From Archangium primigenium (lineage in GTDB: Bacteria > Myxococcota > Myxococcia > Myxococcales > Myxococcaceae), in NCBI RefSeq assembly GCF_016904885.1, contig NZ_JADWYI010000001.1, positions 6,448,001-6,512,000 on the forward strand: 64,000 bases of DNA. The letters are read 5' to 3'. The position numbers were made by a program, and so were the translations under genes. Positions 49,109-53,097 of the stretch are shown here, piece after piece. Numbering within the stretch: position 1 is the first letter of the stretch; every line of letters begins with the position of its first letter. Under the pieces are notes generated by a model. That model did no database searches. It saw only the letters and a list, made by a program, of their open reading frames with translations, and was not told the DNA's origin.

Positions 49109-49873
49109 CTACCACTGATCGGGGTCGGCATCGGCGAAGGTCGTGCCCGTGCCGATCTCGTCGAACCAGATGCTGCGCGTGCCCTGACTGCCCTGCATGT
49201 AGCCGCTGTCATGCCAGCCATTGGCATACAGGCCCACGCGGAACTGGAAGGAGCGATCGTCGGACACGGTGGTGGCCAGGTTGTACTGCTCGAGCACCTT
49301 CTGGCCGTCGAACCACATCTTGATGAAGCCGGTGTTGTCGCTCGCCCACTTCGTCTGGATGATGATCTTGTGCCAGTCGCCCGCGCTCACCGTGGCCAGG
49401 TTGGTGAAGTTGACCGTCTTCTGGCTGCACACCGAGCCCTGCTTGACGCGCGTGTTGAGCTGGTTGCCCGAGAGCCACACCATGGTCGAGGGCATGTAGT
49501 CGTCACAGCCCGTGTCGCCGAAATCGGCGATGAACTGGGCGATGTTGAAGGACTGGCTCTGGAACTGCCAGTCGTTCTGCAGCCGGAAGGCGAAGCCATA
49601 GAAGCCCGTGTCGCCCCGGCGGTACACGTTGTGCTTCACGACCTCCGAGTGGTAGCGGCCGGTATAGGACGGGTCGTAGATCTGCGTCACCTTGAGGGCC
49701 GTCGGGCCCTCGTAGGTGACGTTCGTCACCTCGTTCACCGTGCCCTTGTGCTCCCGGTTGATGGCATTCCAGCCCGACAGGGTGCCGGTGTTGTGGAAGC
49801 CGACCGCCGCGTGCGCGACCAGGGCGGAGGTGAGAACGGAGGCGCCAACCAGACCGATGTGCTTGAGCTTCAT
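49109..49873 (-). CDS. Secreted polysaccharide-lyase-like jelly-roll protein
   Basis: Exported protein of 254 residues from an ATG at 49871-49873 with a signal peptide (MKLKHIGLVGASVLTSALVA). The mature part has lectin/lyase jelly-roll features such as YHSEVVKHNVYRRGDTGFYG, FRLQNDWQFQSQSFNIAQFI, the tract KIIIQTKWASDNTGFIKMWF and FRVGLYANGWHD, like PF14099-type polysaccharide lyases (heparin lyase/glucuronan lyase folds). A role in degrading an acidic polysaccharide is plausible; specificity is not deducible. It is transcribed alone. Confidence 0.72.
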   Translation of the reverse strand: MKLKHIGLVGASVLTSALVAHAAVGFHNTGTLSGWNAINREHKGTVNEVTNVTYEGPTALKVTQIYDPSYTGRYHSEVVKHNVYRRGDTGFYGFAFRLQNDWQFQSQSFNIAQFIADFGDTGCDDYMPSTMVWLSGNQLNTRVKQGSVCSQKTVNFTNLATVSAGDWHKIIIQTKWASDNTGFIKMWFDGQKVLEQYNLATTVSDDRSFQFRVGLYANGWHDSGYMQGSQGTRSIWFDEIGTGTTFADADPDQW

Positions 49874-50002
49874 GGTTCCTCGAGGGGGAGCGGGGAAAAG
49901 CCTGACGCAGAGCAGCAAAACACGGATATCGTATCATAACCGCATTTCCAGGAAAACGCCCTCAAGGCTTTTCAGTGCGTGCCGAGCACCTCCAGGGCGC
50001 GG

Positions 50003-50752
50003 TCAACGCTCCCCGGACAGGGCTTGCGACTCGTCCCGGCGGGGCGGTCGCAGCGTGTGCAGGATCTCGCCCCCCTCCCCCAGGATGAGCAGGGCGCCGT
50101 CCTCGCGCTCCACCCTCGCCTGTCCATTGTAGAAGGGCTCCACCATCGCGAAGCGCTCGCCGTAGAGCGGCGCGCCCGCCGTGTCCACATGGTGCCACCC
50201 GCGCTCATCCCGGGCCCGCGCGAACCCCTTGTGGAAGACATCCAGGTCCAGGAAACGCCGTCCGTTGAGGGGCCGGCCATCCTCGTGGATGTGCAGGTGC
50301 AATCCCTCGGCGTCCTGCACGACCGCGAGACCGTCCCGGAAGTCACCCGCGTAGGCGTGGCGTTGGGCGTAGACGGGGTGGCCCTCCCGGTCCACATGGA
50401 AGTAGCGCCCGTCCCGGTCACGCACCGTACAGCGGCCGGATTGGAAGTTGCCGCACCAGGCATGGCGCTCGGCGGACAATTCCGAGCCATCCTCACGCAG
50501 ATGGAAGGCCTCGCGCCCCTGCACCACGGTGGCCCGTCCCTCGTAGAAGCCGAAGGTCCGGGTGAAGCGCCGCGCGTACACGGGCTGACCCGACACGTCG
50601 ATGTGGAAGGCGCCCGTGGTGTCCCTCGCCGCCGCCAGGCCCGGGGCATGAAAGGACAACACCTCCAGGAACCGGGCCGGGTACAGCGCGACGCCCGCAC
50701 GCACGTGATGGGTCCGGTCCGCCGCCACCCGCGTCTCCGTCCAGGCGCTCAC
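50003..50752 (-). CDS. WG-repeat-like protein coupled to the GT/radical-SAM gene
   Basis: Cytoplasmic protein of 249 residues from a GTG at 50750-50752. It consists of about eight degenerate WG/KWG-type units of 20-24 residues, each with a beta pair such as VYARRFTRTFGFYEGRATVV, YAQRHAYAGDFRDGLAVVQD and LYGERFAMVEPFYNGQARVE. No signal peptide or catalytic motif is seen. The start codon overlaps the stop of the radical-SAM gene (GTGA), so the two proteins are made together; a binding or substrate role in the same pathway is likely. Confidence 0.75.
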   Translation of the reverse strand: MSAWTETRVAADRTHHVRAGVALYPARFLEVLSFHAPGLAAARDTTGAFHIDVSGQPVYARRFTRTFGFYEGRATVVQGREAFHLREDGSELSAERHAWCGNFQSGRCTVRDRDGRYFHVDREGHPVYAQRHAYAGDFRDGLAVVQDAEGLHLHIHEDGRPLNGRRFLDLDVFHKGFARARDERGWHHVDTAGAPLYGERFAMVEPFYNGQARVEREDGALLILGEGGEILHTLRPPRRDESQALSGER

Positions 50753-53097
50753 GGGCCCACCTCCACCGGCTGCCGCATGTTGCAGCCCCGGCACAGCGGC
50801 TGCTCCTGGTAGGTCTCCCGCAGCCGCTGATAGGGCACGCCCGTCCAGACGTCCTGGATTCCCACCTGGATGAGGTCCCCGAACTCACCGAGCGAGCGCC
50901 GCTGCGCATCCGGCGCGCAGCAGGGGTCGAAGCGGCCGAGGGCACTCACCCAGGCCTCCTTGCCCAGGAACGGGCAGCGCGCCCCCGGAGCGATATCGTC
51001 CACGGCCCCTTCGGCCAGTTCGTGGAGGTTCTCCAACAGCAGGTGCCGCCCACCGGCCAGGGGGTGCTCGGCCACGGCCCGCCGGGCCTCACGCACCGCC
51101 GCGTTCCAGCGCCGGATGGACTCGGGGTCGCGCCGCATCGACAGGTTCTTGATCTGCTCGAAGTGCGCCCACAGGTGGTGGCCCTTCACCCGATCCACGC
51201 CCAGGCTCGCGGCGAGCCGCACGATGTCGGCCAGCTCTCCCACGTTGGTCTCCAGGAAGGTGAGCTGGAGGGTCACCCGGCAGCGATGCCCTCCGGCCCG
51301 TGCCCGCGCGTCCCGCTCGGCGATGAACGTGCGCAGGTTCTCCAGCACCCGCTCCCAGCACGTGCCGGGCATGATGGCTTCCTGCGTGGCGCGCGTGGCT
51401 CCGTTCCAGGAGATCTTCACGTCCGAGAGGATGGGCACCAGACGCCGTGCCCACTCCCTGGCGCCCAGGCGTGGAAAGGTGCCATTGGTCGTCAGGTTCA
51501 TCAACAGCCCCTGCTCCCGGCACACCTCGATGAGCTCGTCGAAGTGGGGATAGAGCAGCGGCTCTCCCATGGTGGAGGGGATGATCTCCCGCAGGGGCGT
51601 GTCGCGTGAGTCCTCGAGAATCCGACGCAGGAGCGCGATGGGCATGCGGCGGCGGGGAAGCCCTGCCGCCTTGCGCACGAGTTGCTTGTCGCTGTGGGGA
51701 GAATGCTCCTCGCACATGATGCAGCGCAGGTTGCAGTCGTCCGGGTTGGTGTCGAAGGTGATGCGCCAGGGACCGGGCCGGGTCGGCGGACGGGTGGCAC
51801 GCTTGTCGCGGATGACCCGGGCATAGAGGGCTTCCACGTCGTGGACGTGGTCCTTCATGTCGGGCACGTCGCCGCTCTCGGATTGCAGGTAGCCCCGTGC
51901 GCCCAGCCGCGCGGCCAGCGCGGGTTCGTCCACCAGCCGCTGCATGGCCCGCGCGAGCGCCATGGCGTCCCGGTGCGCGAAGAGCAAGCCATTGACCCCA
52001 TCCTGGACATACTCGCGCATGCCTCCCGCATCCGCGGTGATGACGGGGACGCGGGCCTGGAGCGCCTCATGGATGACGAGGGGTGAGTTCTCCGCCCAGA
52101 TGGAGGGGACCACGATGGCATCCACGTGGTCGAACACATCCCGGACGATGTCGGGATTGCGGTACTCGGGCAGCCACTCGACCCGCGCTCCCGCGTCTCC
52201 CGGGAGCGCCCGCGCCAGGGCCTGGAGCGACTCCGTGCTCGCGCCCCGGGGTCGACCATGAATGCGCAACCGCGCCGGGCCACGGACCCGACCAAAAGCC
52301 TCGATGAGGTGATGAATGCCCTTGGCGGGAATGTGCGTGCCAATGTACCCGAAGACGAAGTCCTGCTCGGGCTGGCGCACCCGGCCCGACAGTCGGCCGA
52401 GGTCGAAACCGTAATCGAGGGAGTGCAGCTTGTGCGCGGGCAGGGGCAATTCCTGAAAGCGCTGGAGCAGGTAGCGCGAGGGCGCGATGAAGGCATCCAC
52501 CAGCCCGGCCATGCGCCGCACGTGGGTCATGCGCCGACCCACCCAGTCCGCCCAATGGGCCACGTCGGTCTCACGCTCCTCGGCCGCGCCCGAGAAGTAG
52601 CGGGCGTAGCAGCGCTCGGCGCACTTGCGGTCTTCCTGGCCCTCGCACGCGGCCCAGAGGTCCTGGGGATCCTCCGGATGCATTTGCATGAATTGCCCTC
52701 GAGGGCACATCAACCAATAGTCATGCAAGGTGAAGACGATGGGCACCCGCCGGGACGCCGCCTGTTCGAGCAGCGAGGTGGACAGGTGGTTGAGGTGCCC
52801 GACATGGACGACGTGGGGCTGGAGGGTCTCCAGCACTTCGGCGAAGCGTTGGTCCACGCCCGCGTGGCGGTAGCCGTCACGGCTGTTGGGCATGTTGACC
52901 AGGTGCAGCGCGATCCGCGGATCATCCGGATCCCGCTCCTGGCGCAGGGTGTAATCCGGACGGAAGGGATCCTCGTACCGGGTGAAGACGTGCACCTCGT
53001 GCCGCTCGGCGAGCCCCTGGGACAAGGCCTGGGTATAGACCTCCGAGCCCGCGTTGAACCGCATGGGGTAGCCGTGAATGACTTGCAGGACGCGCAT
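50749..53097 (-). CDS. Glycosyltransferase family 4 / radical SAM fusion protein
   Basis: Large soluble protein of 782 residues from an ATG at 53095-53097 (MRVLQVIHGYPMRFNAGSEV). Residues 1 to about 420 are a GT-B glycosyltransferase: VHVGHLNHLSTSLLEQAASR, YIGTHIPAKGIHHLIEAFGR, and the EX7E motif in AENSPLVIHEALQARVPVIT. Residues from about 440 form a radical-SAM domain with CNLRCIMC (Cys455, 459, 462), then TMGEPLLYPHFDELIEVC and NLTTNGTF. The C-terminus has a SPASM-like cysteine set (CPFLGKEAW, DPCCAP, CRGC). The two activities in one chain suggest coupled sugar transfer and radical chemistry on a peptide or cell-surface product. Product unknown. Confidence 0.85.
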   Translation of the reverse strand: MRVLQVIHGYPMRFNAGSEVYTQALSQGLAERHEVHVFTRYEDPFRPDYTLRQERDPDDPRIALHLVNMPNSRDGYRHAGVDQRFAEVLETLQPHVVHVGHLNHLSTSLLEQAASRRVPIVFTLHDYWLMCPRGQFMQMHPEDPQDLWAACEGQEDRKCAERCYARYFSGAAEERETDVAHWADWVGRRMTHVRRMAGLVDAFIAPSRYLLQRFQELPLPAHKLHSLDYGFDLGRLSGRVRQPEQDFVFGYIGTHIPAKGIHHLIEAFGRVRGPARLRIHGRPRGASTESLQALARALPGDAGARVEWLPEYRNPDIVRDVFDHVDAIVVPSIWAENSPLVIHEALQARVPVITADAGGMREYVQDGVNGLLFAHRDAMALARAMQRLVDEPALAARLGARGYLQSESGDVPDMKDHVHDVEALYARVIRDKRATRPPTRPGPWRITFDTNPDDCNLRCIMCEEHSPHSDKQLVRKAAGLPRRRMPIALLRRILEDSRDTPLREIIPSTMGEPLLYPHFDELIEVCREQGLLMNLTTNGTFPRLGAREWARRLVPILSDVKISWNGATRATQEAIMPGTCWERVLENLRTFIAERDARARAGGHRCRVTLQLTFLETNVGELADIVRLAASLGVDRVKGHHLWAHFEQIKNLSMRRDPESIRRWNAAVREARRAVAEHPLAGGRHLLLENLHELAEGAVDDIAPGARCPFLGKEAWVSALGRFDPCCAPDAQRRSLGEFGDLIQVGIQDVWTGVPYQRLRETYQEQPLCRGCNMRQPVEVGP

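Follow-up and report, generated by a model that had tools for sequence, protein, structure and literature searches.

A glycosyltransferase-radical SAM fusion and its WG-repeat partner in the free-living myxobacterium Archangium primigenium: a minimal variant of the Undecim core

The myxobacterium Archangium primigenium carries, within a stretch of 64,000 nucleotides of its genome (contig NZ_JADWYI010000001.1, positions 6,448,001 to 6,512,000; hereafter the window), a gene for a GT4 glycosyltransferase joined in one polypeptide to a radical S-adenosylmethionine (SAM) enzyme, directly followed by a gene for a protein with WG-type repeats. Our computational analysis revealed that this pair is a minimal, free-living variant of the core of the Undecim Cluster, which comprises WD0611-WD0621 of Wolbachia phage WO and also occurs on Rickettsia plasmids and in Cardinium. 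The explanation that we prefer, with a probability of roughly 45%, is that the pair represents, in its minimal form, a cassette that moves horizontally and encodes the biosynthesis of a radical-modified glycoside.

Results

The fusion protein and the WG-repeat protein

The pair consists of the following features:

50749..53097, minus strand: coding sequence of the GT4-radical SAM(twitch) fusion, 782 aa (open reading frame and translation, Pfam, full-length relatives, omega)
51808..53097, minus strand: GT4 glycosyltransferase domain, residues 1-430 (PF13439/PF00534, fold matches)
52066..52092, minus strand: EX7E motif, E336-NSPLVIH-E344 (sequence, relatives)
50998..51774, minus strand: radical SAM domain, residues 442-700 (PF04055; SuiB and DesII among the fold matches)
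51712..51735, minus strand: CX3CX2C [4Fe-4S]/SAM motif, C455-X3-C459-X2-C462 (sequence, relatives)
50770..50976, minus strand: twitch-type auxiliary cluster domain, C708-X12-G-X4-C726 ... C769-X2-C772 (PF13186, motif)
50749..50752, minus strand: 4-nt overlap GTGA of fusion stop and WG start (sequence)
50003..50752, minus strand: coding sequence of the stand-alone WG-repeat protein, 249 aa, without a C-terminal O-methyltransferase (PF14903, alignment, beta-propeller-like model)

The open reading frame and the Pfam searches, in which GT4, Radical_SAM, SPASM and WG_beta_rep were each found above their cut-offs, bear out a preliminary description of the locus that had recognised a GT4 enzyme with an EX7E motif and a radical SAM enzyme in a single chain of 782 residues. 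In detail, the GT4 half matches PF00534 (E 3e-27) and PF13439 (E 1e-18), and the radical SAM half matches Radical_SAM PF04055 (E 5e-13) and SPASM PF13186 (E 6.5e-7). Judged by the EX7E motif and the Pfam domains, the protein can be assigned to the GT4 glycosyltransferases, and CX3CX2C together with PF04055 places it in the radical SAM superfamily. Both motifs are invariant among relatives, EX7E in 83/83 and CX3CX2C (Cys455/459/462) in 89/89. EX7E is also kept in the phage WO and Arsenophonus copies described below.

The SPASM motif contains seven cysteines (CX9-15GX4C-gap-CX2CX5CX3C-gap-C), and the twitch motif is its truncated form (CX9-15GX4C-gap-CX2C) with one auxiliary cluster (PMC6231123). 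Just the first four of the seven cysteines are present in the fusion, which rules out a full SPASM enzyme and corrects the earlier label "SPASM-like": by its motif, the C-terminal domain is of the twitch type with a predicted single auxiliary cluster. The auxiliary cysteines 708, 726, 769 and 772 are nearly invariant, and the motif CX12GX4C...CX2C is followed by no further cysteine in 87/89 relatives.

The closest folds to the model of the glycosyltransferase half are MshA, GlgM, sucrose-phosphate synthase and BshA. Several of these enzymes use small or phosphorylated acceptors. For the radical SAM half no sequence relatives were found in the PDB at E 0.001. A separate observation concerns four invariant cysteines in the GT4 half (C131, C151, C159 and C163; 52609-52707, minus strand), some of which fall within a loop modelled at low confidence and which are possibly a metal or Fe-S site.

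The WG protein, whose WG-type repeats had been recognised earlier, scores 29.8 bits against PF14903 (cut-off 25.6), and its gene starts with a GTG at 50752 that overlaps the TGA of the fusion by 4 nt. This overlap leaves no gap between the two genes for a precursor peptide as in ribosomally synthesised and post-translationally modified peptides; short open reading frames elsewhere were not searched systematically. The model of the WG protein is all-beta with a mean predicted local distance difference test score (pLDDT) of 94, and it matches BamB and designed propellers at a moderate level (template modelling score, TM, about 0.5; root-mean-square deviation, rmsd, 7-8), while no sequence relatives were present in the PDB. 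In comparisons with close relatives, the fusion has an omega of 0.15-0.18 and the WG protein one of 0.23-0.26 (leaving out the mis-framed WG values that involve locus L034), and therefore the pair looks maintained.

Relatives and linkage of the two genes

A scan of GTDB species genomes with patterns derived from the window protein yielded at least 80 related loci, so that the fusion is clearly not unique to the window. The relatives have an identity of 59-84% along almost their entire length, with 52% in an archaeal bin (Hodarchaeota), and are distributed over Myxococcota, Pseudomonadota, Planctomycetota, Chloroflexota, Nitrospinota, Verrucomicrobiota, Thermodesulfobacteriota and Bacteroidota; free-living carriers include isolates assigned to Myxococcus, Corallococcus, Halomonas, Marinobacter and Marinomonas. 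Linkage to the WG gene was counted in the 74 loci whose sequence extends 700 bp or more past the radical SAM part. A WG gene follows in all of them (74/74), at a distance of up to 200 bp in 70/74 and of about 0.9-4.7 kb in the remaining four, and the 4-nt stop/start overlap recurs in 61/74. An intact fusion was present in 10/195 Myxococcota genomes, and the WG subfamily of the cassette (>380 bits) occurs in exactly the same 10. The window protein shares with WG_beta_rep proteins in general (PF14903) that it passes the Pfam cut-off, but the cassette WG is a specific subfamily of ~240 aa, against which other WG matches in Myxococcota genomes stay below 80 bits. The Archangium genome (9.49 Mb) has a single copy of the fusion and one high-scoring WG domain. 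Taken together, the linkage, the co-occurrence (10/10), the kept overlap and the purifying selection strongly support the assumption of a dedicated, tightly coupled module, and among relatives with enough sequence none lacks the WG gene.

Relatives of the radical SAM half alone, from one family of the same order, are not accompanied by such a WG protein. Furthermore, genomes of one family (L042-L052) encode a conserved radical SAM protein (about 490-500 aa) that stands alone, is 41-51% identical to the radical SAM half, carries an extra N-terminal region without Pfam matches and has no glycosyltransferase or WG gene of the cassette family nearby.

Anatomy of the complete cassette

Profile searches around the relatives, which also cover the conserved neighbours asked for in the preliminary description, revealed the gene order [SDR]-GT4-radical SAM-WG-[OMT]-[HP]-[NT], with a short-chain dehydrogenase/reductase (SDR, PF01370) of the nucleotide-sugar epimerase type, an O-methyltransferase (OMT, PF00891 with a dimerisation domain), a histidine phosphatase (HP, PF00300) and a nucleotidyltransferase-like domain (NT). 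The WG domain mostly forms the N-terminus of the O-methyltransferase, the phosphatase comes next, and the epimerase often precedes. Among the 69 loci with at least 2.5 kb beyond the radical SAM part, the O-methyltransferase was found in 54 and the histidine phosphatase in 55; the SDR lies immediately upstream in 36/76 loci and shares an open frame in four. The NT domain is the C-terminal part of the histidine phosphatase (L071, 12675-13322), has no Pfam match and weakly resembles the heads of CCA-adding enzymes and poly(A) polymerases (E 0.002). GT4 and radical SAM are fused in 46 loci and encoded by neighbouring separate genes in 29, the split genes being found in Chloroflexota and several gammaproteobacteria, and these two states argue for one shared pathway.

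Variant cassettes were found in L060 (7473-12710) and L096 (8318-15200), in which a kinase-like domain is attached to WG, and a histidine phosphatase and further radical SAM genes are also present; in L060 another WG is linked in one protein to a class II aldolase, and this locus additionally has a NodU-type carbamoyltransferase. A UDP-glucose-6-dehydrogenase-like gene lies near the cassette in 8 loci, seven of them in Chloroflexota. Two further arrangements stand on their own: in Ramlibacter (L068, 10349-11374) a gene between radical SAM and WG is weakly PhyH-like, resembling the Undecim and Arsenophonus dioxygenases (E 4.5e-9 and 7e-13), and on an IMG/VR contig (L186, 10976-11926; fusion 46% identical) the O-methyltransferase is located before WG and not after it.

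The stripped form in the window

Measured against this anatomy, the window pair is a stripped form without epimerase, methyltransferase and phosphatase. According to annotation and Pfam, no SDR, O-methyltransferase or histidine phosphatase gene adjoins it in the window. The WG protein ends with LSGER-stop exactly where relatives (LSGDMV...) continue into the O-methyltransferase, and translation of the 117-bp stretch that separates WG from the following gene gave nothing recognisable as a remnant. No close O-methyltransferase was found elsewhere in the host genome (best 28% identity), in a search that returned one in both positive control genomes, nor was a phosphatase with NT domain (HP-NT) detected in the host genome (G000), here in a search without a positive control. 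WG proteins without O-methyltransferase also occur in G010, L054-L057, L058 (SDR kept), L082, L083 and L088, some of them on short contigs, and this state occurs in several separate lineages.

The pair is flanked by MerR/hydrolase genes and by a polysaccharide lyase gene:

49109-49885, minus strand: polysaccharide lyase, directly downstream of the pair (PF14099, E 2.6e-72)

A lyase beside the cassette was not found in the relatives compared by nucleotide search. No phage genes are among those annotated at 48-55 kb, to which this result is confined.

Horizontal mobility

The cassette is horizontally mobile. Its distribution is patchy, and in a quick tree the Myxococcota rows need 13 label changes, at least 7 of which are forced by supported branches. 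A copy in Wolbachia phage WO is 50.3% identical, with 99% of the query covered, and further copies reside on Arsenophonus plasmids (54% identical, aligned in two pieces); the Arsenophonus copy that was translated in one frame contains internal stops, and these copies may be broken or mis-sequenced. In addition, nucleotide similarity to relatives of the same family stops at the cassette edges. Three congeners share the MerR/hydrolase flank and have no cassette, but they do not provide a clean empty site, as the opposite side is not syntenic. A related genome (G039) contains a broken copy.

Discussion

A proposed cassette for a radical-modified glycoside

The recurrent partners, namely SDR epimerase, O-methyltransferase, histidine phosphatase, UDP-glucose dehydrogenase and the carbamoyltransferase/aldolase variant, are sugar or small-molecule enzymes and support such a pathway. 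We infer the substrate, the order of the reactions and the docking role of WG as follows. In the complete cassette, which would consist of epimerase (SDR), GT4, radical SAM(twitch), WG/O-methyltransferase and histidine phosphatase, sometimes with the nucleotidyltransferase-like domain, the GT4 half would use a nucleotide sugar as donor and glycosylate an acceptor that is small and possibly phosphorylated. The radical SAM half with its twitch domain would then abstract a hydrogen from the GT4 product, followed by oxidation or epimerisation, in which the auxiliary cluster could take up electrons, a role that has also been suggested for BtrN. The beta-propeller-like WG might dock substrate or enzyme for the methyltransferase, kinase and phosphatase steps where these are encoded. 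In Archangium the later tailoring steps would be absent or carried out by unlinked enzymes.

The preliminary description had left open whether the WG protein is substrate, carrier or binding partner. As other genomes carry the same WG as N-terminal fusion partner of an O-methyltransferase, a kinase-like domain or a class II aldolase, binding or docking is favoured and WG looks like a docking domain rather than a substrate.

Several points weigh against the proposed glycoside pathway. With SDR, O-methyltransferase and phosphatase genes missing from the window, the linked genes cannot make the full product. The propeller match of the WG model is moderate, as its TM and rmsd values given above indicate, and the 80 loci were picked by likeness to the window protein, so that close relatives are over-represented and conservation may be inflated. 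Furthermore, some of the twitch and SPASM relatives act on peptides, and the example of SkfB demonstrates that a substrate cannot be read off the motif (PMC6231123).

An extension of the glycoside reading, which we regard as rather doubtful, is that the cassette makes a new class of natural products, in which a GT4 glycoside is radical-modified by the same polypeptide and the WG propeller is an exchangeable dock for methyltransferase, kinase and aldolase. The Undecim core would then be the intracellular branch of a widespread free-living pathway.

Alternative explanations

The cassette could instead build or decorate a cell-surface polysaccharide or another envelope glycan. The epimerase, UDP-glucose dehydrogenase and GT4 partners are in line with this, as are the polysaccharide lyase gene downstream of the pair and the roles in exopolysaccharide or lipopolysaccharide precursors that the Undecim report gives to UC1-UC3 and UC10, by annotation and homology only (PMC9203015). 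However, a single glycosyltransferase recurs, without flippase, polymerase or initiating transferase among the shared neighbours, the recurrent O-methyltransferase is of the small-molecule type and the cassette moves as a self-contained unit, and we consider an envelope role unlikely.

A still smaller chance is given to an antagonistic or phage-defensive metabolite, with the cassette as an island of chemical defence or competition. Carriage by phage WO and plasmids and the patchy, transferred distribution would fit. In some hosts, the defence genes BrxHI, AriA-like, NERD-UvrD and PDC-M27-like flank the cassette, as seen in Pseudodesulfovibrio (L075, with BrxHI and AriA-like beside it) and Halomonas (L071, with NERD-UvrD). 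Against this, L085 and L109 carry the cassette among ordinary chromosomal genes. PADLOC models matched neither the fusion nor WG, HP-NT or SDR and gave one weak generic match for the WG-O-methyltransferase of L071; the reading as a known anti-phage defence system was rejected for lack of a specific match.

It also seems improbable that the WG protein is the substrate, modified post-translationally by the twitch enzyme and glycosylated by GT4. Such a role would explain the tight translational coupling and the obligate linkage, and SPASM/twitch enzymes often modify peptides (PMC9012708, PMC6231123). But WG is normally a fused N-terminal domain of O-methyltransferase, kinase-like and aldolase proteins and thus unlike a precursor, its model is compact, all-beta and of high confidence, and in four loci its gene is separated from the radical SAM gene by kilobase distances. 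Finally, that the Archangium pair is a decaying, functionless remnant is very improbable, for although SDR, O-methyltransferase and phosphatase are missing, the WG frame stops where relatives enter the methyltransferase, the copy in G039 is broken and three congeners have none, both frames are intact, every motif is kept, omega is 0.15-0.26 and WG without O-methyltransferase occurs in several separate lineages.

Comparison with known systems

The fusion shares with BtrN, the dehydrogenase of butirosin biosynthesis, the radical SAM domain and the twitch motif CX9-15GX4C...CX2C. The reaction of BtrN is the oxidation of an alcohol group on an aminocyclitol, for which the auxiliary cluster is the proposed electron acceptor (PMC9012708), and alcohol oxidation on a sugar-like substrate is plausible for the fusion as well. 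In contrast to BtrN, which stands alone, the window enzyme is joined to GT4 and linked to WG. With MshA, BshA and sucrose-phosphate synthase, the best fold matches of its glycosyltransferase half, it has EX7E and the GT-B fold in common, whereas those enzymes possess no radical SAM half.

The preliminary description knew no characterised system of this composition. This holds for the function, as a 2025 paper still terms the Undecim functions unknown (PMC12801941), but the composition had already been described as WD0613/WD0614 (PMC4701759, PMC9203015): GT4-radical SAM plus WG is the Undecim core UC2-UC4 (WD0612-WD0614). UC3 is named a glycosyltransferase/radical SAM fusion by Bordenstein and Bordenstein (PMC9203015), and Baldridge et al. 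describe WD0614 (UC4) as an "unusual" KWG repeat domain/O-methyltransferase fusion and give BLASTp relatives in Haliangium, Stigmatella and Desulfovibrio (PMC4701759). A literature search for WG combined with radical SAM found nothing under those terms, and the link to Undecim came via the phage match. Neither the histidine phosphatase as a partner, nor counts of the linkage to WG, nor the exchange of kinase and aldolase domains turned up in the open-access literature as far as it was accessible, which is no proof of novelty. The aminoglycoside (AGAB) genes of Rickettsia buchneri were also weighed, and no tie to the cassette was found in the sources available.

So far, the Undecim core has been uncharacterised, in obligate intracellular hosts that are hard to manipulate. 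Recognising the same core as a cross-phylum cassette in free-living, culturable bacteria opens its chemistry to standard genetic and metabolomic tests. The comparison also indicates that the WG domain, and usually the phosphatase, belong to the core, suggests a docking-domain role for WG repeats and, by the fused and split states, ties the glycosyltransferase to the radical enzyme. In detail, the window differs from the Undecim Cluster in having just UC3 and the N-terminal half of UC4, without the O-methyltransferase half. UC1, UC2 and UC5-UC11 are not beside the pair, which has no adjacent SDR, PhyH or UDP-glucose dehydrogenase, and its host is a free-living myxobacterium with no phage genes seen next to it. 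Free-living cassettes add a histidine phosphatase, which is not among UC1-UC11. As for the shared parts, UC3 (WD0613) is the same GT4-radical SAM fusion with every motif kept in the phage copy, UC4 (WD0614) carries the same WG domain on an O-methyltransferase (289 bits with the WG model), and UC2 (WD0612) is the same SDR as that of the cassette (328 bits).

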